Part shown: positions 17,971 to 59,010 of the stretch, piece by piece
How the letters are laid out: each line of letters starts with the position of its first letter
How positions within the stretch are numbered: the stretch's first letter is position 1
Assembly: GCA_021292105.1 (NCBI GenBank)
Contig: CM037874.1
Location: forward strand, 27,163,083 to 27,227,082
Length of the DNA stretch: 64,000 nucleotides
Source of the DNA: Anadara kagoshimensis
Lineage: Eukaryota > Mollusca > Bivalvia > Arcoida > Arcidae
Direction of reading: 5' to 3'
The notes under the pieces: generated by a model
What the model was told of the DNA's origin: nothing
What the model saw: the letters and a program-made list of their open reading frames with translations, nothing else
Databases searched by the model: none
Translations under genes and position numbers: made by a program

Positions 17971-18038
17971 GGAAGGTCGAGACTGAATAGTGCATCACTT
18001 GAAGGTTTATTTGAGGCAGTAACACTAAAAAAATCATC

Positions 18039-27772: not shown

Positions 27773-28003
27773 CTAAGCGGTACGATATATGGAATATAAG
27801 GACGACACGAGTAATGGCACTATAGTAAGACTGTTGACATTTTGTATATTGGCACTGTTATTGTTATCAAAATATATCTTCTCTGGTTTGCTGGAATAAA
27901 CAACTCTGTCATTGATTGGTTGAGGTGGCCGGAAATCGTCTGACAAATCTTTTTCCGGTTCTCCGTTCGCCGTTTTCTTCACTTTATGACGAAAAGCATT
28001 GAT
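27773..28003 (-). CDS. Carbonic anhydrase exon 7 (C-terminus)
   Basis: Acceptor TTTGTTTCCAG, 76 codons, then TAG at 27775-27773. FRPPQP is the conserved C-terminal motif. The last 20 residues are fairly hydrophobic after an Asn/Ser-rich linker (NNNSANIQNVN), suggesting GPI anchoring; the final YRTA is less typical. Confidence 0.93.
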   Translation of the reverse strand: MNAFRHKVKKTANGEPEKDLSDDFRPPQPINDRVVYSSKPEKIYFDNNNSANIQNVNSLTIVPLLVSSLYSIYRTA

Positions 28004-34000: not shown

Positions 34001-37000
34001 CATTCCAGAGCACTCTGCCTCACTTTCCTGGTTGAAATTCATGTTGTTTACCTAATTTGTCAGTTTCAAAGGTTTACTTTGCTTTGGGATTTTGATTTAG
34101 ATGTATTTTATCATGACAATAATAATACCATGGAGATACTCGTATGAGATTACCAAAAAGGTAGGATTAGTAGCAAAAATGTATGAATTTTTATCCTTTA
34201 TTCTAACACGACCTGCGTTTTCCTTCATATGAAACATGAAGAAGCCAGCCGTTGTACCCATCGCTGTTCCGTTTATTATTTATGACGTACTCCCTTGCCT
34301 ATCTTATGACGTCAAGATATGTGTCGCAAACAATGGTTGTGACGTAATTTTCATTCATAAAATCATTTATTTCAATGGAGGTAATCTCATCAGCCACATT
34401 GTTTCAATGGACTTTTTTGCAAAAAGATAGTAAAATGTTCTTCCGAAGAAGAGTTCGCAATGTTTATTTCATTCCTTTTTATCTAAGTCATGTTAGAATT
34501 GAAATGAAAAGCCACCGAGTGATATATTCTTCCGCATTTGAACTCCGGCCCGTGTATTATTCGACGATATATCACGGGTAATTGTTGATTATTTCTTAAA
34601 TAACGCATGCCAATTGCATTCTAGCAATATATAATTCTACAATATAGATTTAGCATTTTCTTTGTTTATATATAATAATTATTTTGAGCAAACTGAAAAC
34701 GATGACAACGATATCGCTAAAACTCCATATGTGAATGCTGATAATGAAGCATGTGTTAACTTAAAGTGATGCGATAACTAGCCTGCACATTTTGACCATC
34801 AAAATACTTGATACAGAAGCCGCCAATATCCATTTCGGTGGTATTTGTTTAGCAGAGCTAAAAACGAAACACTTAATATTTTGATTTCGACCATTTTCGT
34901 CCGAGCACTACAGACGACAATTTTATTCTGAAACGACCGTCTAGTGCTGTAAAATTAAAACAGTATTGTAAACAAAATTCTAACTGGTATGAAGCTAGCC
35001 CGCCATTCAATTCGATTATCTTTCAGAATTCAAACATTGCAAAATTAATTCAGGTTTAGTAATAAATATAAGTACCTGTATGTCCGTTATTAGTTAGGCT
35101 CATATTGACGTTAAACACGTTGTCAAAGTCGTGTAGCTTTATGTTCTGTAGCTTAGAGTCGTACTTGACCTGGTTAGTTCTAATACTGATCGGGGACTGG
35201 TGGGTTCCGGCACATTTTGGAAAGTCTAAATACCAACGATCAGGACCATGTTCTCCTTCGTAGTCCCATTCATTTCCTGAAAATAAAAAAAATGCCATTT
35301 AGAATTGACGTTAGTTTTTAATTGTTCATCGCGGTTTGTGGTTGATTTGCCCTGTTGATCCTTTAACATGTAAAATTCATATATACCTTAATGAACGATT
35401 TAAAACATGTTTACAATCATGCAAGTTTTATTTTTGCGAATGGTTGATGTTTGAAAATACAAGATTAAAAGAATACATCGAATTAGTTATATAAATTTGG
35501 ACTATTTGATGAATGTCATCCAAGAAACACCTGGCGGAGAAACCTGCAATCAGAAATGGACAGAGAGGGATACAAATGGCAAGATCTGGTCAGATTAGCA
35601 CAGAATAGAACCAGATGGAGGAGTGTTGTCAGTGGCCAATGCACCTCCCTGGTACCACATGCATAAGTAAGTAAGTATTCGCCATTGCGGAACTATTATA
35701 AAAGTTAATAGAAAAACCGTTAGAAAAATAAGGGAGTAATAATAGTTGAATAAGTAATAGTTACTTATTCAATGTTGAACGCTGCAAAGTTGAATAAGTA
35801 ACGTACTTCGGGTATCTGTGATAATACGAGCAATGACTGATTAAATATTCTTGATCAGTACAAACCGTTTTAGTCTTATTTTTTAAAAGTTTTTTCCCTA
35901 CTTTTCTGTTTAAACAATGATGTTTAAACAAGTTTGATCTTTCATAGCGCAATATATCTCGAATACACATTACCATTCTTTTCAAGCTTATATATATAAT
36001 GTGTATTCGAAATCATATTGCGCTTTGAAAACTCATGTTGTCTGTATATTGGCTGACAGACGGCATGCAGACGTTAAACTCGGACAATCACCATGCTGTC
36101 GGTTTTTTTTGTTTTTTGTTTTTTTTTAATCTATGAAATCCCCTACAATACTAGAAGAATGTTCATAATAGTTTCACGGTGAGCATGTTGCAGTACGCGA
36201 TAAATAATTTCAGTTTAGTTTAATTCAGGACATTACTCGCTGCATGATCTTTGCAATGAGGATGAAACTGTTATCTCTACAAATTTCCAATATCTATTAT
36301 CAAAATCAGTGGAAATTTCATTTAGAAAATTCAAAACATTACAATATGATTGTAGATTGTTTAAGTGCCATATTATAATTTGTTTTAATTTTCAGAATGA
36401 AATATTCAAAAATTTACAAACTGACAACTCACGTATAATTTTTAATTTTGTAATTAAATTGGTTCGATGTTTTAAGCAGTGCCTACGTGACAGTTCCAAC
36501 GTTCTACATAATGATGTCATCTCTGAGACAATTAAGATGGTGATTATATGCCTGCAGCCATGACCATATGTGACCATCAAGGGTCATTATTAGGGTCATT
36601 TTTAAAAATGTCCTCGTTAACGGACAACTCTTCACGCCCCTGAACGCCAACTCAAGTGCGACTAGACACGCGATTCTCTTTTTTGTTAGTAATTTTATTT
36701 CTACGGTATTGTTTTATCTAATTATTATCTTATTTCAATATTATTTATTTATTGCAAAATGTTGCCGTAGTTGGAGAAAACTTGTTTTTGTTTTTTATGC
36801 GTTAGTCTTATATTAGAAGGTTTATTGATAATGAAGACAAAAATACTTCAAAAATAAAAATAATTTGTTTTTATGGTTTTCAGGACAATGGGAATTCATT
36901 CTAACTTCTTTTTATAAATGATTGTAAGGATACATTTAAAAAAAATTGTAACGCCGATTTCTGTAGACATCCCGCCATCGTGGTTTCTCGATACCATGAC

Positions 37001-40000
37001 TAACGCCAATGATAGAACTGGAAAATTACCATATTCGCAAATTACTTGTTGGAAGTTCATAATTTAAATGGAGTCATCATAATTATTAAATGCATTGCCA
37101 ATTCCCTACTAGTGATATTCATTTTATGAATAATTTTCCAATGCCTACGTTTGAATAATACTGATGGTACCAGGGAAAGACGAATCTGCTAGCATATTTG
37201 TCCTTTTAATTAATATCAAAATATCAAATGGATGGTAAAGGAAACCGGAGTATTGTCTGGAAGAAAAGCACCGTTTGGGAAGCGAACAAACTTTTTTACA
37301 AGTGGGACCTTAGTGGTGAGAGGCAATGTGATCCGTATGCGCAAGCTTTAAGCTAAAATATCAAACGCGTTCACCCCTGTGATCCCGGGGTATGACATAA
37401 GTTTTTTTCCGTATTTTAACATTATCAATTGAAATTCGTTCACATGCACGCGTGTATGTTGTTCTTTAAAGTTATTTAACACTAAGCTGATTTACCTTTA
37501 GTCATCATTAGTCAGACACCCAAAGGGAACATGTAGTCATGCTTCTTTATGAATTATTTATCAGAATATTTTAATTATAGAACATGCATGACTTTTTATA
37601 AGGATTGTGTGAAATAATTCTAAAAATGTAAATAAAAGATGTAACCTCGTCAACTCCATCAGTGACATATGCCATACTGTACATCGAATAACAAGTTCGT
37701 GTTCTTTTTATTTTCGCAGAAATGCGCGAGATAAACAACATGCGAAAATAAAACGTTTGCGAATATTTTATATTGAGATAATAGTCGGCAAGTTATATCA
37801 CAATAACATATTCCCGAAAATAATTTAAAATGTTCGGATGTTGTTACTCTCGCGCATTTGATATTCGGCGCGAAAATAAAAGTACACGAATAGCTCGAAA
37901 AGACAATCCTTGCGAAAATAACCTGGCGCGAAAATTCCACGATTTACAGTAATGCATTTTATTATATAATTAATAAATTCCATCTTTATGATTGGCTAAA
38001 ACGGTAACACGTGACCATTGGATCTCACATCATATACCACGGATTTTCCGGTGAATATCAAATTCGGTGTACGTCATCGATTTTTGTCGACTTTCTCCGT
38101 AAAATGATTAGAACGTCATCAATTAAGTGTACGCAAGTGATTGTGTCTTGTTATTTTTTTTTTCATAGAACGTTGACGTTATGGCATTATCAATTTACAA
38201 TGTAGTGTGAAATTTATTGTGTCTCATCCGGAATGTCATTTATTTTTTCATAGAATCAGACTTAAAAAGTCAGATTGAGCTAACTTATGCGGGATAATTT
38301 TAGTGTGCTCAACCAGGGTTGACAGGGAAATCTAACATCGGTAAAATAGTTAGATTGCCTGGTCAAGGTTTGAGAAAACATTGTCAACCGGAGTGCCACA
38401 GTGGCTAAATTATATAATAAAACAGTTATGGACTTTTTAGTGGTTGTATATGGTGTAATATTCACCGGAAAAATAAATATTGACCTCGGCTGTCGCCTCG
38501 ATCAATGTTTATTTTTCCGGTGAATATCACACCATATACAACCACTAAAAAGTCCATAATTATATAGTATTTGTAAATATGAAAACTAATAACTTGTCTT
38601 ACCCAAGCTTGCATTCGAAAGGTTTACCAGAAATGCGGAAAGGAATGCCAAAGCACCAAATCTGTCCGGGGTGATCATTTCCAGCCAGACACTAAGATTA
38701 ATGTTTGAAAAATAATTATTTTTCTTTATTCGATACAGTTTATATACCATAATTTTACATAAACTCAAGTTTTAAGAATATTGTAAACATGATATTATTA
38801 AATGTGACAAAATTTATTTATACGTCGATTTCATTAAAGTTATATTTTTATTGACCATACTTTTGATCTTTGTATCAGTGCATGGTTTTATCTAATAAAA
38901 ACGAATTGTGACTTTATAGAAGAAAGGAGTTCTATCGATGGTCCTTTAATAATATTTCTTATATTTCGTGGTATGTATGAAACTTGATAAAATGACCAAT
39001 CACGTGGGCTGACCTCATATTAAGAGTTTATTAGGCGTTTTATCTATTTTTATTTCGTTTTCATATTATATTTAATATTCATTTTTGTTTATATTAAAAA
39101 TATGAATTTTGACTACATAGTGACATTACATCAATAACTTGAATAGGTTAACATTGATATGAACCCTTTTATTTTTTGTCATAGATGCTTTTTTTCTGAA
39201 ATTCAATTGAATTATTTAATTAAAGAAAGCGTACAGTTCTTGGTTACTCAAGACAAAATAAATTATATGGTGGCATAATAATACAAGTGTATGACAACAA
39301 GTGTATCATTATAACAATGAAATGAATATCCAAAACTTTAAAATTTCTCATATTACAATTTGTTAATATTATTCAAGCACCACCATGCGCTAAACCGCTT
39401 TCCAAATTATTTTCAGCTGTAAACACTTCAAAATTATCTTCAAAAGGTTAAAGATATTAATGTAGAAAGAGTGCACAGTGTTACCGATACAACAAACGTA
39501 TGGTCGATCGTATGAAGCAGAGATGGGTGAAACATGAGATGTAATATTCTTTTAGAATCAAGGAAAATCATCAGTAAACGCTAGACGCATTCTTCGAAAA
39601 ATAGCACAGTTCGACTAGTTTTTTTTAACATAGTCCAAAAATTTCAATACAATATCCATAAAACAAAACAAAAGTGTACGACAGTGACATTTGGCGTTCA
39701 CTTTTACATTGAGATATGACAAAAACAAAATGTATTTCTTTCTATAATCCATAAAATGTAAAGCAATAGTGTTTTACATAAGTCATGTGCGGTTTTTGAA
39801 TTTCTATTAAATAATGCATTCAAAAACAGCACATGACACATGTGGTGAGATGGCCAGTCCGGAGATGACGAAGTAAATCGTTCTGGAAGAAAACTACTGA
39901 CCACCAACAAGCCCAAACTGACCACAAACTATCCATATTAGAATTCTACTAAATGGATTTGAAAAATAAAATTATTTTAAGTAAATTTAGGACAAGCAAC

Positions 40001-41643
40001 CATAGATTACCAATTGAAACTGGACGTTGGCAAAATATAGATAGGAATGAAAGACTTTGTAGTTTATGTCGGGATGAAATTGGGGATGAATATCATTATT
40101 TATTGAAATGTACTTCTTTAACTAGTGATCAAAACAAATATATTCCCTTTGTATTCTCTAAAAATCCAAATATTGTGAAATTGTATGGCTTATTTTCTTA
40201 AAAAAAGATGTCTGTTTCAAACAATTTATGTAAATTTATTAGTATTATCAATGAGAGAGTCAGTCCTCCTGGTTAAATTATACGTTTGATTATGTATAAC
40301 TCACGTATGCTTATGCAATTAAGTATATTATAATGTAGTATATGTTCTCTATATTGTAAATGTACAATTTATGAGAAATAAAGAACTTGAACTTGATTTC
40401 GGACTCTTGGTGGCAAAGGGAGCGACCGATAATTATATATCGATATTGCTAAAAAAAAATACGCACCTAGATGTCCAACACCGCCGTACACAGAATTTGG
40501 TAATAGAACTTGATATATAACAAAAAGTAACATACTTTATCCTCCCTCCCGAATTTATAAAACACGCAGCACGAAATAAACAAAAAGAAATAAATTCAAA
40601 TATTCAATTCGTTTTATATCTTAAACACACGTTATCTTCTGAATATCTCGAATCTGATGCTTAAGGTGTAAATTGTAACAATAACCCGATGGCGTGAATT
40701 TACCTGTGTTTTTATCTAATTATGTTTCAATTTTTATGTAACAACGCATAGATTTGTTCTACCCCATAAATGGTTTACATCAAGTACAGAAGAAAACCAT
40801 TTTGATTTTCATCACAATAATCCATAAATGTATAAGATCTTAAATGATTATAATTAGTAATAGTAAAAGTCAAGACGTTGCCATTGCAGTGCTTTTGTTC
40901 ACCGTCGCTGAGTTTAGGGCTATCATTGCATTGTTGCTATGAACCCTTTGAGTATGAACAACTTAATCCGTCCTTTGTGGTCGATCCAATCGCTAATCCA
41001 ATATGCCATATACCATTTTGAATTTTTTTTTTTAAAATACATTCAAAAATGACATATACCATTGTTGAATGTATTTTATTATTAAATACAAACATGGTAT
41101 ATGGCAAATAAATTAATTTAAAAAAAAACATAAAAGGAGAAAACGAAGAAAAGAAAAAAACGCGGTTTTGAAACAGATTATCTTTAAAATAAAAGAATTC
41201 TATATTTATGTCTTTTGAATTGAAAAAATCTGAAACAAATTTTAAATCGCTACAAAGGTTTCTCTTAACATGACCAGCGCCAAATTTACATTTGTTGATG
41301 CTGTTTTATACTGACTGTTGAAAATATAATAATTGCTGCCCAACTTTAGCTCTCATTAAACGAAAACATAACTACTTGGTCTGGACGGTTTACAGATTTC
41401 TATAAAATCAATCGAAAGCTGATCTTACTCTTACACCGAATAATTAAAGAACCCGATATGAAAATAATTTTTATTTAGTTACTAGCGATTAAAAGTTAAA
41501 ACGGTTTGAACACGAATTAATTTCAAAAAGGCAAAAAATGTTATGCGAAAAATGACAATTCCCCAATTTAAAATATGCGATTTCAATCTGTTTAAAACAT
41601 TAAGCTATTTAAATATGTCTTAAAATATTTGTAAATGCAAAAT

Positions 41644-41688
<45 letters not shown>

Positions 41689-44600
41689 AAAAAAATTAAA
41701 GTAATAGTTTTAATTTTAATAATTATTAATGAATTAAGATTTAAATAGAAATACATTCAATTTGAGGCATATTATACATGGACTAAAAACAGCAGACCCC
41801 AGTTTCAGAGTCATTCCTTAACTAAGACTTTTCTTTTATAATGTATTGCCAATAGACGCATTTAAGTTTTAATTGAAAAAGTACATTTTGAAATACAGTA
41901 AAAATTAACAAAACTTACTTTAAATCGGATTTAAAGTAAGTTTTGTTAATTTTTTCTGTATTTCAAAATGTACTTCAATTAAAAACTTAAATGCGTCTAT
42001 CAAAATCTAACAAAACCATTTTAACTGAAAATCAAATTTAGGATCATGAGGAGTAATTTGGTTTTTACATCTAGAACATTTCTGAAACTGTGACAACATA
42101 TACAATGACTTACCGTGATTTTCAGGCTTTTTAGTGATGGTGCCAGCAAAGGTCAAACCTACCACCTCTAACACAATTATAATACTTATAATCATGCTGT
42201 AACCACCCGACAACAGGAAAGGACAGACCAACGACCGGAGAAACAAAAAGTGAAAATAAAACCTAAGTGACAAACATTATATACCATGGCCGGCTTTATC
42301 AACCTGACGCATCTACCCCGTATCGGTCACGTGGATCGAAAATGATCACCGGAATTTTAGGACCATTTTATAAATATTATTTTACATGGTTATTTTAAGA
42401 AATTTATTCCTATTTTTAGAAAAAAGTTAATCTTAAAAGCCGCCCAGACAAAATTTTACTATTCCTGTTTAGGTTTTGTTGCTATTTCTGGGAACTATTT
42501 AATTTTTATGTCTACATGTCCAATAGTTCATTGGGTGAAAAAATCCATAAGTTACAGTTCAATGTTTCTTAATATTTTTGATAAAGCTAGATGCTTCAGA
42601 TATTTGAGTTAGTCGGTGTGTTATTATTTTGTGTGGTTTTTTTAGATTCATATTCAAATTCATGCAACATTTGTGATTTTTTTTCACAGAAAGGTTCGAA
42701 ATGGCTTTGATTCCGTAAATTTTAGACGTTCTATGTCAAAATTTAAAAACAAAATATACTCAAACATTTTAACAAATGCCAAACAGCTCTCCTCACATTA
42801 ACTTAAGTAAAATCATTTAGTTCGTGTAACTAAGCTATAGGTCCGCTGCAAAATATGGTTTAAACTGAACCAGTGAAACACGTAAACATCTTCCAAACGC
42901 TTGCATGTTACTGTCTTTTGAACGATGGCTTTTATTTACTAGTAAAAAAACAAAATTCGGGGTCTCAGAAATTTTTCAATGTAATAGAATTACAAAGAAG
43001 ATGAATCAGTTCCATTGTACCTGGTAATGTTCAGATCAACCCAACATTTCCAATGAGCCTAGAATACAACAGAGTCCCAACGCTAGTTTGCCTTATACTA
43101 AAAGTATCGAATTATAGAGGAACTGTCATACTAAAAAAATTTGAACTTTCTAAATAATAAAAAAAAATAATATGATAGAACTCTCATTCCCCTATTCGTC
43201 ACTTTTAATTTCATGTGATATTTCCTTCAGTTATATAGCAAGCGCATGTTTTCTTCAGTAACGTATTATTATCATTATGAATATTCACATCGCAGTGATA
43301 TTATCTGGCATACACAAGATGCTGTGGGCTAAAACAACGAACTGGGGAGACCTTTTCCTCATCATTGTCACATGATTTGATGAATATATTATTTGAGAAA
43401 ATACCTTGACACTTAAAATACTTTCAAGCATTGTTCAATTTCTTTATCCACTTCAATGGTCAGTTTGATAGGGTCATCATCATTATTATCACATGAATTT
43501 GTGAATACATTATTTGAGAAAAAACCTTGACACTTAAAAAGACTTTCAAGCATTGGTCAATTTCTTTATCCACTTCAATGGGCAGTTTGATAGGGTTATC
43601 ATCATTATTATCACATGAATTTGTGAATACATTATTTCAGAAAAACCTTGACACTGAAGGGACTTTCAAGCATTGGTCAATTTCTTTATCTATATAAACA
43701 CTTCAATATTCAGTTTGATGGGGTCACCATCCACACCTGCTTCATTTAATAGTACTGGTAAACCATAAAATGACCGCTGGCCAAAGTTTTCTTTATCACC
43801 ACATTCTTGGTCCATGATACATAATAGGTATCTATGTTATAAATAGAGCGGTATAGAACGTGTTCTGACACGCTGTAGTTACAAAACGGTGGATCCGGGA
43901 AATAATGACATTTATCATTCCAATAGTCCGGGAAAGATTGCTATCGGTTTTTATTTCTAATGTTCTTAATATAGAAATGAAGCCGTTTGTTAAATCAGCT
44001 CAAAAACAATTTCAACCATAAACAATTTTGCTGCTGAAAATATTCTCTTCAATACCCCTCGATTCTAGACTAACAACAATCTTTCAATGTTCCGGTACAA
44101 ATGCTCTTTGTACAATGTCTGTGTCTCATATTGTTTGCACAATGCCACAATGCTCGAACCGTTCACATCATGCGTGTGGCCCATACTGTTTTCACGGTTT
44201 GTGGCTCACATTCTTTACACCATGCTTGTGGTTCATACCTGTGACCCATACTGTTTGCACTATGTTTGTGTCCAACACTTTTTACACCATGCTTGTGGTT
44301 CATACCGTTCACACAATGATTGTGGTCCACGCTGTTTTCACCATTCTTGTGAGCTATGTTGTTAATTTGCCCCATGCTTATGGATCATACTGTTTGCACC
44401 ATGCTTGTGGCTCGTACTGCTTGCACCATGCTTGTGTACCTCATACCCTATACACTATGCTTGTGACTCATATTGTTCACAACAGGTAAGCAGCCGATGC
44501 TGTTTGTATATAATGTTTGTGGTCCACACTGTTTGCACCATGCTGGTGGCTCATACTGTTTGCACCGTGTTTATGGCCCATACCCTTTACAATATGCTTG

Positions 44601-47600
44601 TGGTCCATATTGTTGACACCATGTTTGTGCCTCAAACTGTTTGCACACTCTTGTTTCCATGATGTTTTACCATGTTTGTGGCTCATATTAGTTGCGCCAT
44701 GATGGTGCCCTGTACTGTTTGTACAATATTTAACAACGCGAAGATGCATGTATACTTGTAAAGGAAACCGTGCTGTTTTAAAATAAACCAAAATGCCACA
44801 TGTCGTTTTCCACACACTAAGTAAAGTTTTGCAAAATGTTCAACAACCTGGGCCTTTTTACCACAATTTAAAATGATAGCAATTTATGTAAACGTGTTGT
44901 TTGATTAAAATTAGCCCTAACACCGTATTTTAATATAAAAATGACAGTTTTACTGGTCAACACACTTTTTTTCTAGCGATATTCTTCAAATTTTACGATG
45001 GAATTCATTGTTTTTTCAACATGGCATACTTTCAAGTGGCACTAAAAATGATATTTTTTTATTACCAGCTCGAATATTCAGTAATTTATTCATTGATGCT
45101 TTCTTTTTTTTCATTTTTGGGTATTTGATGTAATTATCTGGTGAATCTGATTATTTTTCCTTATTTTTTTAAAAAACTTTTTAAATTTTTATTCTTATTA
45201 CTTTTTTGTCTCTTTTCTGTTGAACTAGCAGTAACTATGTTGTTTTTATCCCTTTAGATTTTCTTGATCAGATTATACAATTGATGAGAAATTATATACT
45301 AAAACCCGGTATACATGCGATATGTTATGAAGTGACACATGTGTATGTTGAGTTAATTTATTTGCGATTTTGTTTTTACAGCTGTTATTCTGCTTGTGCC
45401 CAATGTACTACGTGATTTTTGGAAGTCTGGCTATGGCAATTCCGGTCATAGTGTACGTGATTTTTGGAAGTCTGGCTATGGCAATTCCGGTCATAGTGTA
45501 CGTGATTTTTGGAAGTCTGGCTATGGCAAACCCGATAATAGTGTACGTGATTTTTTGGCAGTTTGACTCTGGCGGAAAGCCGACGGCATTTTACACGCGT
45601 TTACACGAAATATGGCGATTTGATACAAGATAACAGATAAAAGAATAATCGTAATTTAAAAATAAATATTATATCCCTAAGGGTTTGGGTCACTGGTACT
45701 CGACGGTGTACTTTTTCCGGGACATGTTTTATTTTATACCATGCAGTTAAATATAATGGATACAAACCATCGCAAATAAAATGATTGTACTCATTTAGCG
45801 ACATTTATGACAAAATCGTCCAGAAATAAGGCCAATTTTATTATTGCAAAGTTTATATGGCAGTGTAGTGTATTGATTGGAGAAATGTGCAACCACGTAA
45901 TTCATGATAAAATGTAAAACTTTTGGCTTATCAAGACCCTCAATTTTTTATGACTGTTATCACAATATTATGGAAAAGATATATTTGACGTGCCATAGTT
46001 CTATGTTCCTCTCATTCCCAATTTTGACTCGAATGTGGCGGGTGTAGCTAGCTATTAAACAAGGGGTAATTGACCTTTAGGATCACCCGGTCTCACTTCT
46101 CTCGTTTAACTTTATTTGCCAGTTTTAAAGTATTTACTTTGTTCTTAGATAGAAATTTGGACATGGATTGGTATGTTTGTTTTTGAGATACGACCCATAA
46201 ATGGCGCCATTTTTAAAATGTTCATGTAACATTTTCTGTACATAAAGGCTCTGTAAATTTTAAAAGTTGATTTGAATCCAAAAAGATTTAGGGAAACCTA
46301 AGTCGTTGCTAAATCTTTATTCTACCAAGCAATTCTACATAAGCTATATATAAGCTTACAAGCCGTTCGGTATTCGTATTGCAGTGCAAAGATATTCCTC
46401 TTTGGAGCATCTGTAACCACTCGGTAAATGAAATATCAAAGGAAACCGGGTATGTTCTGAAGCAATGGCTGTAGTTTGTAATCAAAAACAAACATACTTA
46501 ACCATGTCCGACTCACAACCCAGAAGCAAAGTAAAAAAGAACTTTGAAACTGAAATGATGGAACTAAACTATCAATTATAAGTTTGGGGAAACCTTTACC
46601 AAAACTTGTTCTCCAATATGTTTAACGACGATATCGATGTCCACAAGACTTTTAAGTCTCGCAAGTGCAAAGCATAAATCGCATCACGTAGCGACAGTGT
46701 TAGTATATATTTATTATGTTCCCAAATGAAATGGGCGACACATTGGTTTTTATGCGATCTAATCCTTCGTCTTCTTTTTGTAACACTAGCTTTAATCTTA
46801 ATCCGTAAAACCCTTCCAAAATAATCGTTACATCGCGTATATTTTAATAATCAAAAACAAACATACTAATCCAACCCAGAAGCAAAGTAAAAAAAAACAA
46901 CTTTGAAACTGACAAGTTAGGTTAAACACCGGAACCTCCAGCAGGGAAGGACGGGTATTCCGGAAGGGAAAGCATATCCTGTTTAGCTAGCTACACCCTC
47001 CACGTATGTAATCAATATTGAATGACAGGAACTTGAAAGTATCAGACGTCAACTATATCCAGGGTAATCATGGACACAGAGACATCAAATTTATCAACAA
47101 TACTGTGATGACGCCCATAAAAAATCTCAAGTTCCCCGATAAGTGGTATTTTTTAAATGTATTTTATGATCAAATTCAAAAAGTGGTATGTGACAAATAG
47201 ATAGATCCTAAACTTGCTAAGTGATAGTTTACATACAAACGTTTGAAATATGGAAAAATAACTCGATTACATGGGGATTGGTATTAACTTCAAAATATTT
47301 TTATAATCTGTTTATATACGGTAGTAAAGGGTCATATATAAACCAAAACCAATAAACAGATTCTATATGTAGCTATAATTATTATAATACACTTCAAAAT
47401 AAATAATATGTTTATGTACTTCTCCGCGAAACATTTACGACTAAAAATGTATCATGAAAAGTTAAAATGGCTTAACCCTGCATTTTTATTGCTCATTATT
47501 TGGTAAAAACTGGCACATGCCGCTCTAAATCGTACCTCCCACTTTATCACTTTGCACTTTGTTCATATTGGAGACACTGTATATCTTTTATGGAGATTTT

Positions 47601-49916
47601 TATTATTGCAGTCAGTCTGTCCGCTATCTTAATGCTGATCCCATTGATGTCAATCTGGGTCTGGCCCCAGTTTCACAATCATTCCTTAACTTACATTTAG
47701 TCATGTTTTATCTATGGATGTACATTTTTTACGAAATAAAAAGCAGATGTTTTAAGCTTTAAGTGGTCTGCAAAATGACACATTAAATTCCTAAATATCT
47801 TAACAATTCACAACATTATTAAGATTTCAAATTTGTCATATTTAAGTTGAAGAAAATGTTTAGTTAAGGAATGATTGCGAATCTGGAGCCAGCTGGTTCT
47901 TTAAAGTTCCTTTGACTTAACCAGTTGGTTAGCCAAAATTTGTATTCTGTGTTATATAGGCGACATATTCAAATTGTGTACACATTTGTTGTTACTAATT
48001 AGAAGCAGTAAAAGCCAATACTGTATTTTTTACAGTGTATTAAATATTTATTGGTTAAATAATATTTGAATTTCATTTACCAACCATTTAGTTAAACTAA
48101 CGGAGCATCTTTGAACATCCATCTCCTAATGGTTAGTACATTTCAGAAATCATTTCATAAAATAAAGCAATTTCAAGTTACAAAACATGTACTTTGTAAT
48201 AGTCGAACGAGTAATGCGAGTAGGTAACTGGTTATTAAACTACAGTATAGCATATGAAGAAACAATGTAAATCGACAACTGTACATCACTCAATTTAAAT
48301 ATAATCCTAAACAAGTCAATACATTTCTGTGTAGTTGAAATGCAAAGTATATTGTTTTGTGCTAAAAAAAAGAAGTGGACTTTACAAAGACGAAACGAGA
48401 CTGAATGCATTAATTGCTACACAATCTTGCACATTATGCAATGCATGCGCAAATTGTTTGTCATAATAATAATAATTTAAAATTGTGATGAAGTATAAAA
48501 TTTCTTACAAAAAATTTGAATTTTCTACCTTTCATATCCATACTTCAAAACCATTCGAGTATTAACATTATGCAAATAGGCAAAATCAAACATACGCAAT
48601 TCATTGTAAAGGCATCTCTGAAGATCAAAAACAAATACTAGGATGTTTTTTAACTTTAAAACATTTTAAATACGTGATATCACGATTACCCGGCGTTATC
48701 TACCGTTAAAAAACTCTCTTGTTTTAATTTTGCTAACAACCATGAAATTCAGATATCATGCATTCATTTTAGCATCAGTATGCACAAATAGGATGGGCAT
48801 TTTTTAATTTCAAACATTCAAACATTCAAAATTTAAAAAAATCATGAAATTCAAATATTATGCATTCATTTTTAAAATTTGCATGCATGTATTGTCTTCA
48901 ATTGAGAGAAGAGAAGTTAAAACCAGTCATGACTTACCTGCACTCCCAAATACCAAACGAGGAAACAAATGGATACACAACACAAACTGAATAGCACTGC
49001 CTTTCTTTACCCAAATCCCCATCTTACATGTTACAAAAAATTCTAACTCCAACATAAGCGTGTATATTATTACTTATATATAAGTATATTAACTAAATTC
49101 CGAGGAATTGTTTCCATTCCGATGAAAATTGATGAACACAAAGATCATTATAGGTTAAGTAAGTTTGACGTTTTTTCATGGCATGACGATAAGTTTTTTT
49201 TTTAAATGTACCATGCCAAGTGTAAAAACTCAAGTTATATGTTCAATTTAGTGATAATAATGGGTCATAGTAGTTCGAGAAAAATACAAATATTCATGTT
49301 AATGTTCTCCAATTTCATTGTTACAAACCGTTTGTTCTTTGACCTTTACAGTACTGACCTGTCGAAAGTTTAACACTTAGCAAAAGAACTAGTGCCAGAA
49401 TCGACAATTTATCTCAATACCTCGTTCGCTTTACCTCGACAACTTTTCGGTAGCTGTTATCTATTTCTCGCCCGCTTTCCGGTCGCTAGCTATAAATATC
49501 TGTCACCCAGTAGCCGAACTTTTCGTTAGCTCAGTGTTAAACTTTCGACAGGTCTGACCTTTATGCTAAGATATGAAGAAACATCTCATAAACCCGCCTT
49601 GGATGTTCTTCGGCTGAGCGGAAAGTTTATCCATTAAACAAGAGTTATACGGGGGTTATACGGGAGTTATACGGACCTTTGGACTACATATATTAATTTT
49701 ATGATTGCTAGTTTGAATTTACTTCAATTTTAATCCTTCTACAATGATAGAAATATTTATAACTTAATAAAGATACTGGTTTTATTGACACTTCATATAA
49801 CATTTTTTTACTAGACTATTGGCATGAAAGAAGTTCTTATTTATTTTATTATTGATATAATAGAGAATTGAGTCTTATTATTATTATCATTATTATTATC
49901 ATCATCATCATTATTA

Positions 49917-49952
<36 letters not shown>

Positions 49953-52038
49953 TTTCACGATTCTTTATAAGTAAATGAGCTGTTACACAAATCTTGAATA
50001 ACAATCGGGGTATTTTGTAGGTTCCCCGTACCATGGTCTTCACTAATGCGATGTTAAAAAATATCACAAGATTTGACAAAAATGGTGTTTCCGCCACTAG
50101 TTATCGGCATGTGTGCTATTTTCGTGTATTTTTGGTATGGGGATAATTTCGGGTTTTCAAGTTTTCTGTTTATTTTCTGGAAAGTGTGAGAATCGGTCCA
50201 TTTCAAGTAGAAACGATCAACAAAGAGTGCAAAAATCACTGCATTTGTGTCGATATTTGCTGTATCAATGCTATTAGTGAAATGTTCAACTGTTAATGGT
50301 GTAAAAATTTGAAAGTAGCCAAGTACTAAAAATGTCATATTATTTCGTAAAGAATTAATTGTTCAGCCTCCTATAAAATCTACATGTACCTTCTCTTAGA
50401 TCACATCTCAAACGTAATTTATGTTCGCGGTGTACTAATTTTTGCTTATTTCGGGGGCGTTTGTTTTGCGCCAAAATTAATACAAAGCGAAAATTATATT
50501 TTACCTTTTATGCTATAGAGCATATTTCAAAAACGCGAAAATTTAACTACGCAGATATGTCTAAATACCCTATACCGCGAAAATAAATACATGCGAAATT
50601 AAATATTTACAGTATTTCAATACAAAGGTAAAGGTTTTTTTTTTTTAGAACTCCACAAATTTTGATGCTCTTGGCAGTCAATATTACTGGCATCGATGTG
50701 TAAATGTGCACGGCGAAAATCATTTTTCGGGGCTAATTTTTATTGTAAAAAACTTCAAAAATAAAATGTAGCACTTTTGTTGACCGAGATCCTAAGTTAT
50801 AACTAAATAAAATGAGTTTCTCTAAAGGCTCTACGAAAAACAAGTAACAAAATTTATAATACTGGTATAACACAAGAACCTTTGCTTTAATTATATTGAC
50901 CAAAACATTTATCATCTCCGGTTTCATTGGAGGTGTTCATTTATTCTGTTATGATGTCGTTTTCTATATGGCAAAACGTGCCTTTAACAGCCAATGACTA
51001 CACGCCCCTTGCATTATAATCTCAATGGCATTATAAAAGATAAAATAAAATTTGTAGACCGAATCGTTTTCTGAACACCATCGATATATACCATGGCCAG
51101 TTGTCGGTTAGAGAGAGAGGGGTGTGACATTTTGTCCCGCGTCTGTCCGTAGTCGATACTTCTATTCTCATCTGTTATCTTGTTCCTTATTTCGTTACCT
51201 GTAGCATGTCCCAGGTTGCTATGGCATTGCCACAAGTACGCGCAATTCAAAATACATGTAAGTACAAATACACGTCTAAACTTCAAGTTCAAGAGTGATA
51301 AATAAAACTATATTTAATTTTGAATAACTACAATAGATACATTTGTAAATCAGCCTTATGATACACATTACGTATTCCTCCCTCGTTCATTTTATTACAG
51401 TTCATCTAAAGCCACACACAAAATAAAGATTTAAAATAACATCATAATGAGAAACAAATTACATTCCGTTTTCTTGTAATCTTTATCTTTCTCGATCAAT
51501 TGAACTTTATTTGAGAGTATACTAACCTTGTGTCATAACAGAAAGTCAAAGTTTACAAATGTGACTACACTTACGGTGCCTTTATTTAATATTTTCTTCA
51601 TAAAAACAGACATATAAAATTTTTAAACTCATTGATCGAGACCTCTAAATAACAAGGTGTTATTAGTTTTTTGCAATTTTATTAACTCAAAATATTTATA
51701 TGTGTATGATACTTACATGTCGAGGAGAAATTTTTATACAACCTTTTTTTAATTTCGAGAAAATGAAACCATCTTAAGAGTCGCTAGATTAATTGCCATT
51801 TTTTCAATAAATTCGGATTACGGTGCATATTTTCATTATTGACCAGAATTGAGGACACCTACAGTGTAGAAACAGTACTCAATGCACCCAATTTTCGGGA
51901 AATGATTCAATATATAAAAAAACTCTCAACATTAAATGATTCTAGTGTCAAATGATTAAAATTTAACCACAAACTACAATTTTAATTCCATAGCAGTAAA
52001 ACACGTCCCTGAGGAGAGAGAGAGAGGAGAGAGAGAGA

Positions 52039-52086
<48 letters not shown>

Positions 52087-52492
52087 GGAGTGTCTTGAAG
52101 AAAACCACCGAAATTCGGCATGTAAATTGAAGAACTTTCTCATATTAGAATCTTTTTTGACTGGACAGTGAGATGAGAGGCTGTGATCAGTAAGCGCGTT
52201 TTGTACCAATCTGCCACCGAGGCCCAGAGAGAGAGAGAGAGAGAGTTGAAGAAACCAGTAAATAAAATTTTAATTTCATAGAGATAAAACACATCCCTAA
52301 GAGAGGGGGGAAACCGGAGTGTCTTGAAAAATCTCCTTGAGTGGGCAATGAGATGAGAGGCTTTGATCCGTAAGGCCTCCGAGGCCTAGAGAGAGAGAGG
52401 GGGGGAGGGGTGGATTTACGCTTACTATACAAGTTGTTCCTGAGCTTGAAGAGGTTGTTGGTTTAATCACTGGTTTGTTCTTTTACTTATGT

Positions 52493-52529
<37 letters not shown>

Positions 52530-52984
52530 TGATGGACCAGTGACGCACAAGTAATTATGTTATCTAAATAGTTTATTATTCTATTGGAGATGTCCATCTA
52601 ATTGGTCATTATGAAAGCTTCAATAAGCACACGCCTTTGCATATGACTAGACATCCCATATGACAACATGCAGAAGTATAGCTGTAAATATGTTATCGAA
52701 ATGTTCACTGGCTTATTATTACGTATTTAGTAATTTGTATCTTGCAAATATAATATTTTGCATTGTAAATATGTACATGTGTACTTAAGTGAGGACGAAA
52801 CGTTCCGTAGACATTTCGTACGGAAGTAACTCTGGTATAGTGAGTGACCTAGATACAAGTAAAAAGGCAAGTAAAACAAAAGTGCACATGTCATATGAAT
52901 GCTTGCTTCAGTCTAAAACAAGTGTGGACGGTACTGGTCTAGACGTATTTATAGACAGATGTTCTCTCTCTCGCGCGCGCGCTT

Positions 52985-53037
<53 letters not shown>

Positions 53038-53215
53038 TTTAATATTTAAATACGATTAAGATTTAACCAAAGAGGAACAACTCGCACGTATCCCTTTAAA
53101 ATACCAGTCCACATATTGCTCACGATATGTGTTATACATCTTTTTTTTTAAATATTTATTTTTTTAACATATTATTCAGTAAAAATTATACATGACACGT
53201 ATATTGTATTCCAAA

Positions 53216-53249
<34 letters not shown>

Positions 53250-53819
53250 TGATGTATGCTTTTATTTTGCGTTGCATGCTACAATTTCGAAAATTAAGAA
53301 AACCATGACGCGAGCACTTGTTAGTTTAAACAATATTTATTTGAAAATCAAATCAATAACATAATGAAACAATTTAACAAATCAGGATCCTGGAACAAGA
53401 GTAAAACTCTTATATTAACCAGTTTCCTGTGCATCTATAATATAATATAACAATTTATACAACATGGCATTATATACAAGCAATTAAGTAAAGCATTCTG
53501 TAGAACATTATGAATGAGAGAGAGAGAGAGAGAGATACACATAAAACAATGGAGTATGAATAGTTTTCAGTGAAATCGAGCACTTGTTCTTATTAGCAAG
53601 AATTTACTGAGCAGTACTCGACTACTTCTTGAAAAATAAATATACCCCAAAAAATATACAATAAAACGGTTCAATTATTAAAAAATATGACTTACCAAGC
53701 TGGAATGGTTCATAGATGATGTTGATGCTGTCATTAATATCAGTATGTGGATAATATCTATGTAGTAACAGAACAATTACCCAGGGGAGATACAACCCTA
53801 AAACCGACTTCATCTCCAT
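27773..53819 (-). CDS. Extracellular alpha carbonic anhydrase with four candidate alternative first exons
   Basis: Body exons 2-7 are 35276-35076, 33705-33557, 32838-32746, 31517-31445, 28778-28615 and 28003-27773. All have canonical sites and matching phases. The enzyme hydrates CO2. Visible family residues are GPDRWYLDFPKCAGTHQSPI, the proton-shuttle context NNGH, two zinc His in QFHFHWG, Glu and the third zinc His in MEMHIVHYLD, and SLTTPPC with the active-site Thr. The Cys in FPKC and TTPPC are the pair that forms the disulphide of secreted forms. The C-terminus has LSDDFRPPQPIND, then a tail with a hydrophobic stretch (LTIVPLLVSSLYSIY) that could be a GPI signal. Upstream, four signal-peptide exons (38678-38603, 42195-42114, 49022-48938, 53819-53696) all end with one extra G and can join exon 2 as Gly-Asn-Glu-Trp. 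With the 42.1-kb leader the protein is 330 residues. Confidence 0.93.
28420..28515. repeat. Small imperfect hairpin element
   Basis: GCAGTGCTTTT..AATAATAC faces GTATTATT..AAAAGTAGC. It is similar in style to the elements at 39775, 40995 and 54000. It lies in carbonic anhydrase intron 6. Confidence 0.45.
28615..28778 (-). CDS. Carbonic anhydrase exon 6
   Basis: Acceptor TTTTACTTGTAG, donor CAG|GTGAGA. Encodes IPDVSSLDHYYRYDGSLTTP and the PCFESVVWTVF core with active-site Thr and disulphide Cys. Confidence 0.97.
29128..31300. repeat. 67-bp minisatellite, about 32 copies, inside carbonic anhydrase intron 5
   Basis: The monomer carries GGCAACAAAGTTTGGTATGT, CCTTATGCTTTCGGGAATGT and AGTTGCCACCAAAATATTAA. 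At each junction GTTGCCAC and GTGGCAAC can pair across CAAAATATTAA. Copies with a 'GGCACCAAGG' variant recur about 670 and 600 bp apart, showing a higher-order unit of 9-10 monomers. Since 67 is not a multiple of three, frames are open only for two monomers, so coding is unlikely. Confidence 0.97.
31445..31517 (-). CDS. Carbonic anhydrase exon 5
   Basis: Acceptor ATTTATTTGTAG, donor AAAG|GTAAAC; phase 0 to 1. Encodes IGSEEYHNDHFNEIISHFDE. A short exon of the kind found in this part of animal alpha carbonic anhydrases. Confidence 0.93.
31591..31905 (-). mobile_element. tRNA-derived SINE
   Basis: On the minus strand the tail (AAATAATCTT with TATAAGTG) is at the left and the diverged tRNA head at the right. 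Body blocks GTGCCACGCTGACCGTGATA and CAAGCACTCGGCA (complement) are shared with copies at 56053, 56579 and 59975. Confidence 0.75.
32440..32690 (-). mobile_element. tRNA-derived SINE, truncated and diverged
   Basis: AAATATTTCACTTATATCGA at the left matches the SINE tail in reverse. The body resemblance fades after about 32690, just before exon 4. Confidence 0.6.
32746..32838 (-). CDS. Carbonic anhydrase exon 4
   Basis: Acceptor TTGTTATTTTAG, donor GAG|GTAAGG; 31 codons, phase 0. Starts MHIVHYLDIYGN: the first His is the third zinc ligand. Continues EHGLMVLAFMFE, a core beta-strand. Confidence 0.97.
33325..33450 (+). repeat. SINE tail fragment
   Basis: TTTCCTCCACCATCCCTGAA and ACAAGTGAAATATTCTTGAC followed by GGGGCGTAAAACC match the tails of the SINEs here. 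No tRNA head is present. Similar tail-only pieces are at about 19620-19725 and 54130-54275. Confidence 0.6.
33557..33705 (-). CDS. Carbonic anhydrase exon 3
   Basis: Acceptor TTTATGTTACAG, donor GAG|GTAAGA. Encodes LPGRYRAQQFHFHWGSIDRR (two zinc His) and GSEHDFNGVHYPME. The last Glu and exon 4 Met-His rebuild the E-x-H-x-V-H motif. Confidence 0.98.
33843..34095 (-). repeat. Interspersed repeat family A, copy
   Basis: Blocks GCCATCATCACAGTATTG, GTAGATAGCTAAACAGGAGG and GGTTTACTTTGCTTTGGG; lies in carbonic anhydrase intron 2. Confidence 0.75.
34200..34600. repeat. CRE-bearing repeat module related to 8400-9050
   Basis: The TGCGTTTTCCTTC..AACATGA..GAAGCCA start and the CCCGTGTATTATTCGACGAT / ACGGGTAATTGTTGATTATT end are shared with 8390-8530 and 8940-9050. 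TGACGTCA lies near 34309. Confidence 0.55.
35076..35276 (-). CDS. Carbonic anhydrase exon 2 (start of catalytic domain)
   Basis: Acceptor TTTTATTTTCAG, donor ACAG|GTACTT; starts and ends in phase 1. Encodes NEWDYEGEHGPDRWYLDFP, KCAGTHQSPISIRTNQ and LTNNGHT. It needs an upstream exon ending in one base; a G gives Gly before Asn. Confidence 0.98.
35514..35666 (+). pseudogene. Non-LTR retrotransposon ORF2 C-terminal fragment
   Basis: The open frame CHPRNTWRRNLQSEMDREGY then WQDLVRLAQNRTRWRSVV, with a stop at 35664, is the conserved C-terminal tail of RTE-like LINE polymerases. It is followed by TAAGTAAGTAAGT, a typical short-repeat 3' end. It is truncated 5' and lies in the intron upstream of carbonic anhydrase exon 2. 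Confidence 0.75.
35938..36030. repeat. Small hairpin
   Basis: CATAGCGCAATATATCTCGA..TACACATTA faces TAATGTGTATTCGAAATC..ATTGCGC. No TSD was identified. Confidence 0.55.
36031..37670. other. No gene seen; intronic AT-rich sequence
   Basis: This is part of the long intron between exon 2 and the first leader exon. Short frames on both strands (for example 36309-36563) show no family motif. Confidence 0.5.
37675..37951. mobile_element. MITE family R copy
   Basis: TACTGTACATC on the left, GATTTACAGTA on the right, with GCGAAAATAA motifs inside. The resulting minus-strand open frame is a by-product. Confidence 0.75.
38409..38571. repeat. Large near-perfect hairpin
   Basis: GGACTTTTTAGTGGTTGTAT..ATTCACCGGAAAAATAAA faces TTTATTTTTCCGGTGAATAT..ATACAACCACTAAAAAGTCC. 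The apex is CCTCGGCTGTCGCCTCG. The surrounding module (37960-38280) has several ACGTCAT/GACGTTA motifs. It ends about 30 bp from the 38.6-kb leader exon donor. Confidence 0.9.
38603..38678 (-). CDS. Carbonic anhydrase alternative first exon a (signal peptide)
   Basis: ATG at 38678, then MITPDRFGALAFLSAFLVNL followed by SNASL, and donor TTGG|GTAAGA, ending in phase 1 with G. The hydrophobic core GALAFLSAFLV and the small residues before the junction (SNAS) make a good cleavable signal peptide. It joins exon 2 in frame as SLG-NEWDYEG. It is the leader exon closest to the body and has the best TATA box. Confidence 0.8.
38739..38746 (-). promoter_or_regulatory. TATA box for leader exon a
   Basis: TATATAAA on the minus strand, 61-68 bp upstream of the ATG at 38678, within ATGGTATATAA. 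The same 11 bases precede leader exon b. Confidence 0.6.
39775..39842. repeat. Small hairpin element
   Basis: GTCATGTGCGGTTTTTGAAT faces ATTCAAAAACAGCACATGAC. Same style as 40995 and 54000. Confidence 0.6.
39940..40400 (+). mobile_element. LINE 3' end fragment with zinc-knuckle-like motif
   Basis: The 82-codon frame (39953-40201) has FRTSNHRLPIETGRW and RLCSLCRDEIGDEYHYLLKC, the C-x2-C-x8-H-x4-C motif seen downstream of reverse transcriptase in several non-LTR elements. The 3' end AATAAAGAACTTGAACTTGA is a typical LINE tail. It is 5' truncated and has no catalytic domain. Confidence 0.75.
40995..41110. repeat. Small hairpin element, ATGGTATATGGCA type
   Basis: TGCCATATACCATTTTGAAT recurs inverted at ATGGTATATGGCA, and internally as TGACATATACCATTGTTGAA. 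Confidence 0.6.
41650..41687. repeat. Poly-T tract
   Basis: An uninterrupted T run of about 38 bases. Confidence 0.95.
41797..42000. mobile_element. Palindromic MITE family P relative with perfect internal hairpin
   Basis: The left end CCAGTTTCAGAGTCATTCCT belongs to family P. The rest (41852-42000) is a hairpin with arms of about 65-70 bp from ATAGACGCATTTAAG to CTTAAATGCGTCTAT, apex TTTAAATCGGATTTAAA. It lies about 110 bp downstream of leader exon b. Confidence 0.8.
42114..42195 (-). CDS. Carbonic anhydrase alternative first exon b (signal peptide)
   Basis: ATG at 42195, MIISIIIVLEVVGLTFAGT then ITKKPENH, donor CACG|GTAAGT, phase 1. The core IISIIIVLEVVGLTF and the small residues AGT fit a signal peptide with cleavage near Ala/Gly. 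The mature leader would add a short basic-polar stretch before NEWDY. Confidence 0.85.
42276..42283 (-). promoter_or_regulatory. TATA-like box for leader exon b
   Basis: TATATAAT on the minus strand, 81-88 bp upstream of the ATG at 42195, in the context ATGGTATATAATG. Confidence 0.5.
42290..43360. other. No gene seen; intronic sequence
   Basis: AT-rich sequence without supported exons on either strand; upstream region of leader exon b. Confidence 0.5.
43361..43720. repeat. Tandem repeat of about 120 bp x 3
   Basis: The block CACATGAATTTGTGAATACA..CCTTGACACTTAAAA..CTTTCAAGCATTGGTCAATT..CACTTCAATGGKCAGTTTGA repeats three times. Confidence 0.85.
44100..44760. repeat. Degenerate 30-bp minisatellite, His-rich on the minus strand
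   Basis: Units such as CCATGCTTGTGGTTCATACT recur every 30 bp or multiples. Being a multiple of three, the array keeps frames open on both strands. The minus strand reads decapeptides like HKHGANSMSH and HQHGANSVDH over 44477-44815 and 44163-44375. No signal peptide or clear splice link is seen. Confidence 0.85.
45395..45633 (+). repeat. 45-bp tandem repeat x 3 with open frame
   Basis: TACGTGATTTTTGGAAGTCT..CTATGGCAATTCCGGTCATA repeats almost exactly three times, with a fourth diverged unit. From an ATG at about 45403 the frame encodes a hydrophobic 15-residue repeat (VIFGSLAMAIPVIVY) and ends GGKPTAFYTRLHEIWRFDTR with a stop near 45633. A splice-acceptor-like TTTTTACAG lies just upstream. 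Product unknown; it may be a chance open repeat. Confidence 0.55.
45900..46190 (-). repeat. Interspersed repeat family A, copy
   Basis: GTGCCATAGTTCTATGTTCC, GTGTAGCTAGCT and AGGATCACCCGGTCTCACTT blocks. Confidence 0.7.
46848..47130 (+). repeat. Interspersed repeat family A, copy (plus 46480-46560 fragment)
   Basis: Plus-oriented copy from AAAAACAAACATACTAATCC through TTTAGCTAGCTACACCC to CAATACTGTGATGACGCCC. It carries the frame NHGHRDIKFINNTVMTPIK, matching the frame at 5159-5386. Confidence 0.75.
47663..47890. mobile_element. Palindromic MITE family P, copy
   Basis: GGCCCCAGTTTCACAATCAT on the left, TTAAGGAATGATTGCGAATC on the right. Confidence 0.75.
47900..48900. other. No gene seen; intronic sequence
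   Basis: No exon is supported. Near 48770-48870 a short internal duplication is visible (CATGAAATTCARATATYATG CATTCATTTT twice). Confidence 0.5.
48938..49022 (-). CDS. Carbonic anhydrase alternative first exon c (signal peptide)
   Basis: ATG at 49022, MGIWVKKGSAIQFVLCIHLF then PRLVFGSA, donor GCAG|GTAAGT, phase 1. A basic n-region (KK), hydrophobic core and VFGSA before the junction fit a signal peptide cleaved right at the exon border. It joins exon 2 as GSAG-NEWDY. Confidence 0.82.
49024..49029 (-). promoter_or_regulatory. Minimal start-stop upstream ORF (ATGTAA)
   Basis: On the minus strand ATG-TAA ends one base before the leader exon c start codon (ATGTAAGATG). If transcribed it could reduce initiation at the downstream ATG. 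Confidence 0.4.
49073..49080 (-). promoter_or_regulatory. TATA box for leader exon c
   Basis: TATATAAG on the minus strand, 51-58 bp upstream of the ATG at 49022: a consensus-quality match implying a short 5' UTR. Confidence 0.6.
49354..49560. mobile_element. MITE family Q, well-preserved copy
   Basis: GACCTGTCGAAAGTTTAACA on the left and TGTTAAACTTTCGACAGGTC on the right. Confidence 0.85.
49876..49951. repeat. (ATT)n microsatellite
   Basis: Imperfect ATT/ATC run. Confidence 0.95.
50054..50338 (-). CDS. Unassigned 94-codon open frame, doubtful
   Basis: ATG to TAA frame with mixed composition (NSIDTANIDTNAVIFALF, LKWTDSHTFQKINRKL). No family was recognised and no splice link, promoter or paralogue was seen in the window. 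It lies inside a carbonic anhydrase intron and could be a chance frame or a repeat fragment. Confidence 0.15.
   Translation of the reverse strand: MTFLVLGYFQIFTPLTVEHFTNSIDTANIDTNAVIFALFVDRFYLKWTDSHTFQKINRKLENPKLSPYQKYTKIAHMPITSGGNTIFVKSCDIF
50400..50616. mobile_element. MITE family R, truncated copy
   Basis: TTCGCG and GCGAAAATAAATACATGCGA motifs, right end ATATTTACAGTA; the left end is degraded. Confidence 0.55.
51195..51292 (-). pseudogene. Possible degenerate leader exon of the carbonic anhydrase gene
   Basis: The frame reads KFRRVFVLTCILNCAYLWQC then HSNLGHAT and ends at ACAG|GTAACG in phase 1, like the four leader exons. It lacks an in-frame ATG, and a stop lies upstream. It could be a dead leader, use a TTG start, or be a coincidence. 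Confidence 0.3.
51300..51980. other. No gene seen; intronic AT-rich sequence
   Basis: No supported exon; only short frames. Confidence 0.5.
52011..52410. repeat. GA-rich microsatellites with duplicated flanks
   Basis: GA runs at 52011-52081, 52225-52244 and 52388-52400. The AAACCGGAGTGTCTTGAA and AGATGAGAGGCT blocks occur twice, showing a local duplication of about 230 bp. Confidence 0.85.
52495..52524. repeat. (TA)n microsatellite
   Basis: Pure TA run. Confidence 0.9.
52986..53032. repeat. (CT)n microsatellite
   Basis: CT run preceded by CGCGCGCGC. The plus-strand frame ending in Ser-Leu repeats is a by-product. Confidence 0.95.
53216..53248. repeat. (ATT)n microsatellite
   Basis: Pure ATT run; a short GA run follows at 53516-53534. 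Confidence 0.9.
53696..53819 (-). CDS. Carbonic anhydrase alternative first exon d (signal peptide, longest)
   Basis: ATG at 53819, MEMKSVLGLYLPWVIVLLLH then RYYPHTDINDSIN and IIYEPFQL, donor CTTG|GTAAGT, phase 1. The core VLGLYLPWVIVLLL is strongly hydrophobic. About 20 polar residues follow, so this isoform would have a longer mature N-terminus. An AAATATAC box at about 53898-53906 is a weak TATA candidate. It would need to splice over 18 kb to exon 2. Confidence 0.72.
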
Positions 53820-54619: not shown

Positions 54620-54721
54620 ATGGCGGAATCAGGAGACATGGTGAAACACTCTGGAGGTTGTCATTGTGGTTCTGTACGATTTGAAGTTATGGCACCTACA
54701 TCTCCAAGTGTACGATTGCAA
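54620..54721 (+). CDS. CENP-V-like exon 1 with 2-base frame break
   Basis: ATG at 54620 is preceded by an acceptor. MAESGDMVKHSGGCHCGSVR holds the first C-x-C zinc motif. Donor CAA|GTAAGA. The break lies in TCTCC at about 54699-54705. Confidence 0.8.
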
Positions 54722-54824
54722 GTAAGAACATATGATAAAGTTGTTTGGTGGTTAGAAAGAAAAAAAAATTGTAGACTTGCGATACAAGGTTATGACATTA
54801 TGTGGCCGGGCTAAAATATGTCCT

Positions 54825-54872
<48 letters not shown>

Positions 54873-58959: not shown

Positions 58960-59010
<51 letters not shown>

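Follow-up and report, generated by a model that had tools for sequence, protein, structure and literature searches.

Five candidate secretory leader exons upstream of a single alpha carbonic anhydrase body in the bivalve Anadara kagoshimensis

Leader exons and carbonic anhydrase body

We analyzed a 64,000-base stretch of the Anadara kagoshimensis genome (assembly GCA_021292105.1, contig CM037874.1, positions 27,163,083 to 27,227,082; hereafter the window, within which all coordinates are given). Its minus strand holds the body of an alpha carbonic anhydrase (CA) gene, preceded by a row of short exons that start with ATG and encode hydrophobic leaders. We favor, with a probability of about 0.7 on sequence evidence, the reading that these form one gene for a secretory enzyme, probably anchored by glycosylphosphatidylinositol (GPI), whose alternative first exons would each supply a promoter and a leader. 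A first-pass annotation had reported four such leaders and had suggested that independent promoters produce one enzyme with tissue-specific leaders and different mature N-termini. Its observation is confirmed and extended here to five leaders. Its interpretation is partly supported: several exons phase-matched to one body, most with a TATA box, occur far above chance and make it plausible, while splicing, promoter activity and tissue specificity are the parts that we infer.

The CA body comprises six minus-strand exons at 35076–35276 (201 bases, beginning at 35276 after the normal, shared acceptor TTTTATTTTCAG, phase 1), 33557–33705 (149 bases, with zinc ligands in HFHW), 32746–32838 (93 bases, with the third zinc ligand in MHIVHY), 31445–31517 (73 bases), 28615–28778 (164 bases, with SLTTPPCFESV) and 27773–28003 (231 bases, with the stop). 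As the first-pass annotation stated, the body takes exactly one base from upstream, and with a G placed before its six exons it reads through 303 residues without interruption to the stop. This reading matched Pfam PF00194 over its full length (E 1.5e-92; 310.3 bits, cut-off 27; profile positions 1–253 of 254). The motifs FHFHWG, GSEH, MHIVHY, SLTTPP and NNGHT aligned with the CA XIV and CA II chains in the three alignments inspected and are presumably the three zinc-binding histidines, the gate residues Glu and Thr, and the proton-shuttle His. By sequence, the body is a complete alpha CA. A hydrophobic C-terminal tail (SLTIVPLLVSSLYSIYRTA) stands at the stop and, read by eye, resembles a GPI-anchor signal, and the enzyme is probably GPI-anchored.

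Only one body was found, as had been claimed: tblastn and blastn searches of the window returned no second body and no fragments beyond noise, the best tblastn match outside the body's own exons having an E value of 1.4 and the best blastn match (18 bases, E 0.004) falling inside a 145-base tandem array. A search for relatives gave 31 pattern matches in genome contigs and 5 in viral contigs, none of which was confirmed, as expected for an animal gene. The body has neither an early in-frame start codon nor a signal of its own and resembles the extracellular group of the family; each transcript must therefore bring both.

Five minus-strand exons could supply them. The four reported previously lie at 38678–38603, 42195–42114, 49022–48938 and 53819–53696 (leaders 1 to 4), and each indeed has an ATG start, an open frame, a length of 3n+1 (phase 1) and a final G followed by GTAAG. 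Leader 1 reads MITPDRFGALAFLSAFLVNLSNA^SL plus G (the caret marks the predicted cleavage site), with the donor GTAAGA (donor score 3.25) and a signal score of 6.51. Leader 2 reads MIISIIIVLEVVGLTFA^GTITKKPENH plus G (donor GTAAGT, 6.35; signal 6.46), and leader 3 reads MGIWVKKGSAIQFVLCIHLFPRLVFG^SA plus G (donor GTAAGT, 8.75; signal 7.16). Leader 4, the weakest, reads MEMKSVLGLYLPWVIVLLLHRYYPHTDINDSINIIYEPFQL plus G before a GTAAGT donor; it is hydrophobic and lacks a good cleavage site (best score 1.68). The earlier description of secretory leaders thus holds for three of the four, leader 4 being hydrophobic but doubtful as a cleavable signal. The earlier count missed leader 5 at 40533–40467, which reads MLLFVIYQVLLPNSVYG^GVGHL plus G (donor GTGCGT, 3.64; signal 3.79; full reading MLLFVIYQVLLPNSVYGGVGHL plus G). 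It was spotted by reading the strand and then recovered, uninstructed, by the scan of the whole window described below. A 56-residue frame with six cysteines (40436–40603, minus strand) overlaps leader 5 in another frame.

Cleavage scores, calculated with a von Heijne matrix, were thus 3.8–7.2 in four of the five leaders, against the usual cut-off of 3.5. The final G shared by all five would create the same GNEWDYEGEHG junction. Ahead of the common NEWDYEGEHG, the predicted mature stubs are SLG, SAG, GVGHLG and GTITKKPENHG for leaders 1, 3, 5 and 2 (leader 4 has no clear site). Different mature N-termini are therefore predicted, as proposed earlier, but the difference is limited to stubs of 3–11 residues, and the enzyme domain would be identical.

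Excess over chance

The window was scanned for exons that start with ATG, span 15–55 codons, contain a hydrophobic stretch, score 3.5 or more on the von Heijne cleavage matrix and end at a phase-1 donor scoring 3.0 or more; these thresholds were fixed after the sequence had been read and before the scores were seen. Five exons passed, all on the minus strand and starting at 38678, 40533, 42195, 49022 and 62038; the exon at 53819 was not among them. The 19,324-base region upstream of the body thus holds four passing exons on its minus strand and none on its plus strand, whereas Markov copies of the region (200 each of order 2, 3 and 5) held 0.05, 0.085 and 0.085 on average, and two in the largest single copy. 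Across 24 threshold settings, the region gave 2–6 passing exons and its opposite strand always 0, against means of 0.05–0.33 and a largest copy of 2 in 60 order-3 copies. The sixth candidate in the region appeared at the loosest setting (36577) and is poor, with a donor score of 2.05 and C as its final base.

In real DNA at the main setting, the rest of the window contained one passing exon on the minus strand (62038), and the plus strand contained none throughout; over the 24 settings, the rest of the window gave 1–3 on the minus strand and 0 on the plus strand. Taken as a background of one per about 109 kb, this predicts about 0.18 exons in the region, and the probability of at least four is near 4e-5 (calculated by hand). 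The same scan for phases 0 and 2 found no passing exon on the minus strand; its three phase-0 passes on the plus strand all lay within a 67-base tandem array. All passing minus-strand exons are therefore in phase 1, as the body requires. The excess over chance, like the coordinates and phases of the leaders and the completeness of the body, is established; the splicing of the leaders to 35276 we infer.

The outsider at 61975–62038 (minus strand) reads MSFILSLALVCLTFIYCSMQE plus G, with a donor score of 5.6, a signal score of 7.06 and no TATA box. It sits past the neighboring plus-strand gene and may be a chance occurrence or part of another gene.

Predicted promoters and 5' untranslated regions

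For each leader, we took the best TATA match 45–100 bases upstream of the ATG and compared its score with those of all 431 ATGs in the region. In minus-strand orientation, leader 1 has TATATAAA at -68 (38739–38746; score 7.81, equaled or bettered by 8.1% of the ATGs), leader 5 has TATAAAAC at -85 (40611–40618; 8.18, 5.3%), leader 2 has TATATAAT at -88 (42276–42283; 5.66, 20%) and leader 3 has TATATAAG at -58 (49073–49080; 8.79, 2.8%). The best score for leader 4 was 3.03, equaled or bettered by 56%, which amounts to no TATA box. Combined over the five leaders in the order 1, 5, 2, 3, 4, these fractions (0.081, 0.053, 0.202, 0.028 and 0.557) gave p 0.013. The TATA boxes predicted for four of the five leaders thus lend modest support to the presence of promoters. 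The first-pass annotation had placed good TATA boxes 51–88 bases upstream of three leaders; good matches do occur at -68, -88 and -58 of leaders 1 to 3, the one at -88 being the weakest. Its observation that the two nearest of its leaders share ATGGTATATAA stands.

The implied 5' untranslated regions (UTRs) measure 30–60 bases and are free of upstream ATGs except at leader 3. There, a start-stop ATGTAA (49024–49029, minus strand) lies one base before the leader ATG and could damp translation.

Alternative explanations

Several observations weigh against a single gene with alternative leaders. Signal-peptide exons of animals are often in phase 1, and the phase fit is hence not specific to this body. 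The equally good exon at 62038 lies outside the gene, so the background is above zero. Leader 4 stays below the cleavage cut-off (1.68 against 3.5), leader 2 has a weak TATA box, and a wider search from -200 to -20 found better TATA matches at -144 for leader 1 (slightly) and at -177 for leader 2. K-mer sharing among the upstream regions does not exceed that among randomly placed stretches, and in GC content the five leaders lie only marginally above the region (combined p 0.057). The model also calls for introns as long as 18.4 kb. Finally, a coding-potential model that was meant to exclude other genes failed its own control: trained on exons of two neighboring genes, it scored three of the six true CA exons negative and decides nothing.

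The serious rival explanation assigns the leaders to a series of independent small genes for secreted peptides, arranged one after another upstream of the CA, and leaves only the nearest leader to serve the enzyme. A TATA box, a signal exon and a phase-1 intron are typical of such genes, whose second exons are short and often lack a Pfam family, and codon bias could not exclude them. Two cysteine-bearing frames would suit them as well, namely the 56-residue frame over leader 5 and a 94-residue frame with seven cysteines (37943–37662). The final G in all five leaders, however, suits the CA body. Moreover, the region contains 75 open reading frames (ORFs) of at least 45 residues, and in the 16 minus-strand ORFs searched in Pfam (12 between leaders and 4 in the stretch from leader 1 to the body) no family exceeded its cut-off, the sole match reaching 13.8 bits against 27. 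The 94-residue frame was included in these 16 and the 56-residue frame lay outside them. This result weakens the explanation, which we regard as unlikely.

It is considerably less probable that the additional leaders remain from tandem CA copies that have lost their bodies. Duplication would leave traces such as GGTAAGTCAT at three donors and the ATGGTATATAA common to two leaders, but the window holds no body fragments beyond noise, and no in-register similarity links the leaders or their flanks. In addition, ATG, frame, hydrophobic core and donor have all been kept, and unselected relics of such age should have decayed. Similarly improbable is that one or two real leaders are padded by lucky hydrophobic readings, which are common in AT-rich intron DNA: the exon at 62038, the poor leader 4 and the modest donor (3.64) and signal (3.79) scores of leader 5 speak for this, but both the Markov copies (0.05–0.09 expected per region) and the other DNA of the window (about 0.18 expected) leave four passing exons far from expectation.

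Relation among the leaders

Leaders extended by 250 bases upstream and 150 downstream showed no similarity in register when compared. The best matching pieces were 33–44 AT-rich bases (E 0.001–0.004) that paired the upstream flank of one leader with the downstream flank of another. Shorter sequences were shared, however. The 64 kb contain three copies of GGTAAGTCAT, a word picked post hoc, against 0.17 expected; they coincide exactly with the donors of leaders 2, 3 and 4. Positions +7 to +20 past the donor were more alike than at random strong donors (p 0.002, with four stretches tested and a control that ignores T-rich intron starts), whereas the last 15 exon bases were no more alike than at random donors (p 0.36). 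Similarly, ATGGTATATA, also a post hoc word, has three copies against 0.32 expected, all on the minus strand: at the TATA boxes of leaders 1 and 2 and at 51085. Sequence identity around the three copies was at the random level. The third copy (51085–51094, minus strand) lies inside a longer GGCCATGGTATATA, of which leader 2 has a copy at its TATA box, and no recognizable leader follows the third copy.

The shared GGTAAGTCAT and ATGGTATATA and the likeness past the donor favor a common ancestry of the leaders. The missing in-register similarity, the unlike exon ends, the absence of shared upstream k-mers and the random identity around ATGGTATATA disfavor it. An origin of the leaders by duplication is possible.

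Proposed mechanism and implications

In the single gene with alternative leaders that we favor, every first exon would carry its own promoter (with a TATA box in four of the five), a short 5' UTR, a start codon and a secretion signal, and the phase-1 donor of each leader would be spliced to the common acceptor at 35276. Because the predicted enzymes are nearly identical after cleavage, the array would serve several independent transcriptional controls rather than different enzymes. Most likely, then, the array places one enzyme under several such controls, its promoters being active and separately regulated in this model, which could allow the enzyme to be turned on independently from one tissue to another.

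A stronger version is possible, and we propose it tentatively. The gene may carry five or more units of promoter and leader, each under its own control, in which start, signal, phase and donor have been preserved although the sequences are no longer recognizably related. Such a modular array would provide several expression programs and mature ends that differ slightly, taking the place of the gene duplications reported for bivalve CAs. In bivalves, alpha CAs are linked to shell mineralization and ion transport. If the arrangement is real, one mineralization or ion-transport enzyme would gain several regulatory inputs without gene duplication, and the leaders would offer a clean case of signal peptides that diverge freely with their function kept.

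Neighboring genes and repeats

Plus-strand exons at 54620–59172 (MAESGDMVKHSGGCHCGSVRFEV...), which we take to be a CENPV / GFA-type gene, are divergent from the CA gene and start about 800 bases from leader 4. Two of their ORFs had no Pfam match, and a third gave a sub-threshold match to a family other than CENPV / GFA. Another set of plus-strand exons at 18035–21750 (MSESDLKPFEGKWENYKDENLVDTLEAMG) presumably belongs to a fatty-acid-binding protein gene. Scans of the window for tRNA genes and Rfam families returned no matches.

Three tandem repeats were also observed. About 33 copies of the 67-base unit occupy 29129–31347, in the intron between body exons 4 and 5, and about 6.7 copies of the 145-base unit (57871–58838) apparently lie in an intron of the neighboring plus-strand gene. 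A 120-codon minus-strand frame at 44480–44839, with many HKHG-type repeats and no Pfam match, runs over a 27-base tandem repeat and is probably a by-product of it.

Comparison with known systems

Bivalve CAs have been reported to be expanded by duplication, and the words exon and splice are absent from the main text of that report (PMC6639325) and from that of another paper on bivalve CAs. The latter lists oyster isoforms named X1 and X3, so variants of this kind may already be present in automatic annotation. Among the matches listed from an incomplete library of open-licence literature (titles and the starts of abstracts), we found no CA with several signal-peptide first exons. Alternative signal-peptide first exons are known elsewhere; it is this number of leaders on a CA that was not found among those matches.

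Within the CA family, the closest likeness is to the membrane-bound, extracellular CA XIV and CA XII, CA XIV (1rj5) being the best solved-structure match of the isoform with leader 1 (E 1.8e-61). The Anadara enzyme differs at its C-terminus, which lacks a cytoplasmic part and ends in a hydrophobic tail more reminiscent of a GPI signal of the CA IV type. CA VI reportedly has a stress-inducible form made from a second, differently regulated transcript start (Sok et al. are said to have described it in 1999). That alternative form is said to lack the signal peptide and to be intracellular, whereas here each start seems to bring a signal.

Microsomal triglyceride transfer protein (MTP) is kept in the endoplasmic reticulum. 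Alternative first exons of a single gene give two isoforms in mouse (MTP-A and MTP-B) and distinguish LsMTP-A from LsMTP-B/C in the salmon louse (PMC5538283). The likeness to our locus is in this use of alternative first exons; the differences are that MTP has two kinds of N-terminus and is a lipid transfer protein.

The nearest parallel in architecture comes from the IgLON genes Lsamp, Ntm and Opcml, in which twin promoters (1a and 1b) drive first exons with alternative signal peptides for one GPI-anchored protein; after processing, the N-termini of the proteins are the same, and a regulatory role is ascribed to the arrangement (PMC5288359). As in IgLON, several first exons here each carry an ATG and a predicted signal and share the phase that fits a single acceptor, and four of our five leaders appear to follow this pattern. 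The IgLON genes have two promoters rather than four or five, encode an adhesion protein rather than an enzyme, and are backed by transcripts. Their mature N-termini are identical and our predicted stubs differ, which lowers the strict identity of the two systems but not the likeness in their mode of working.
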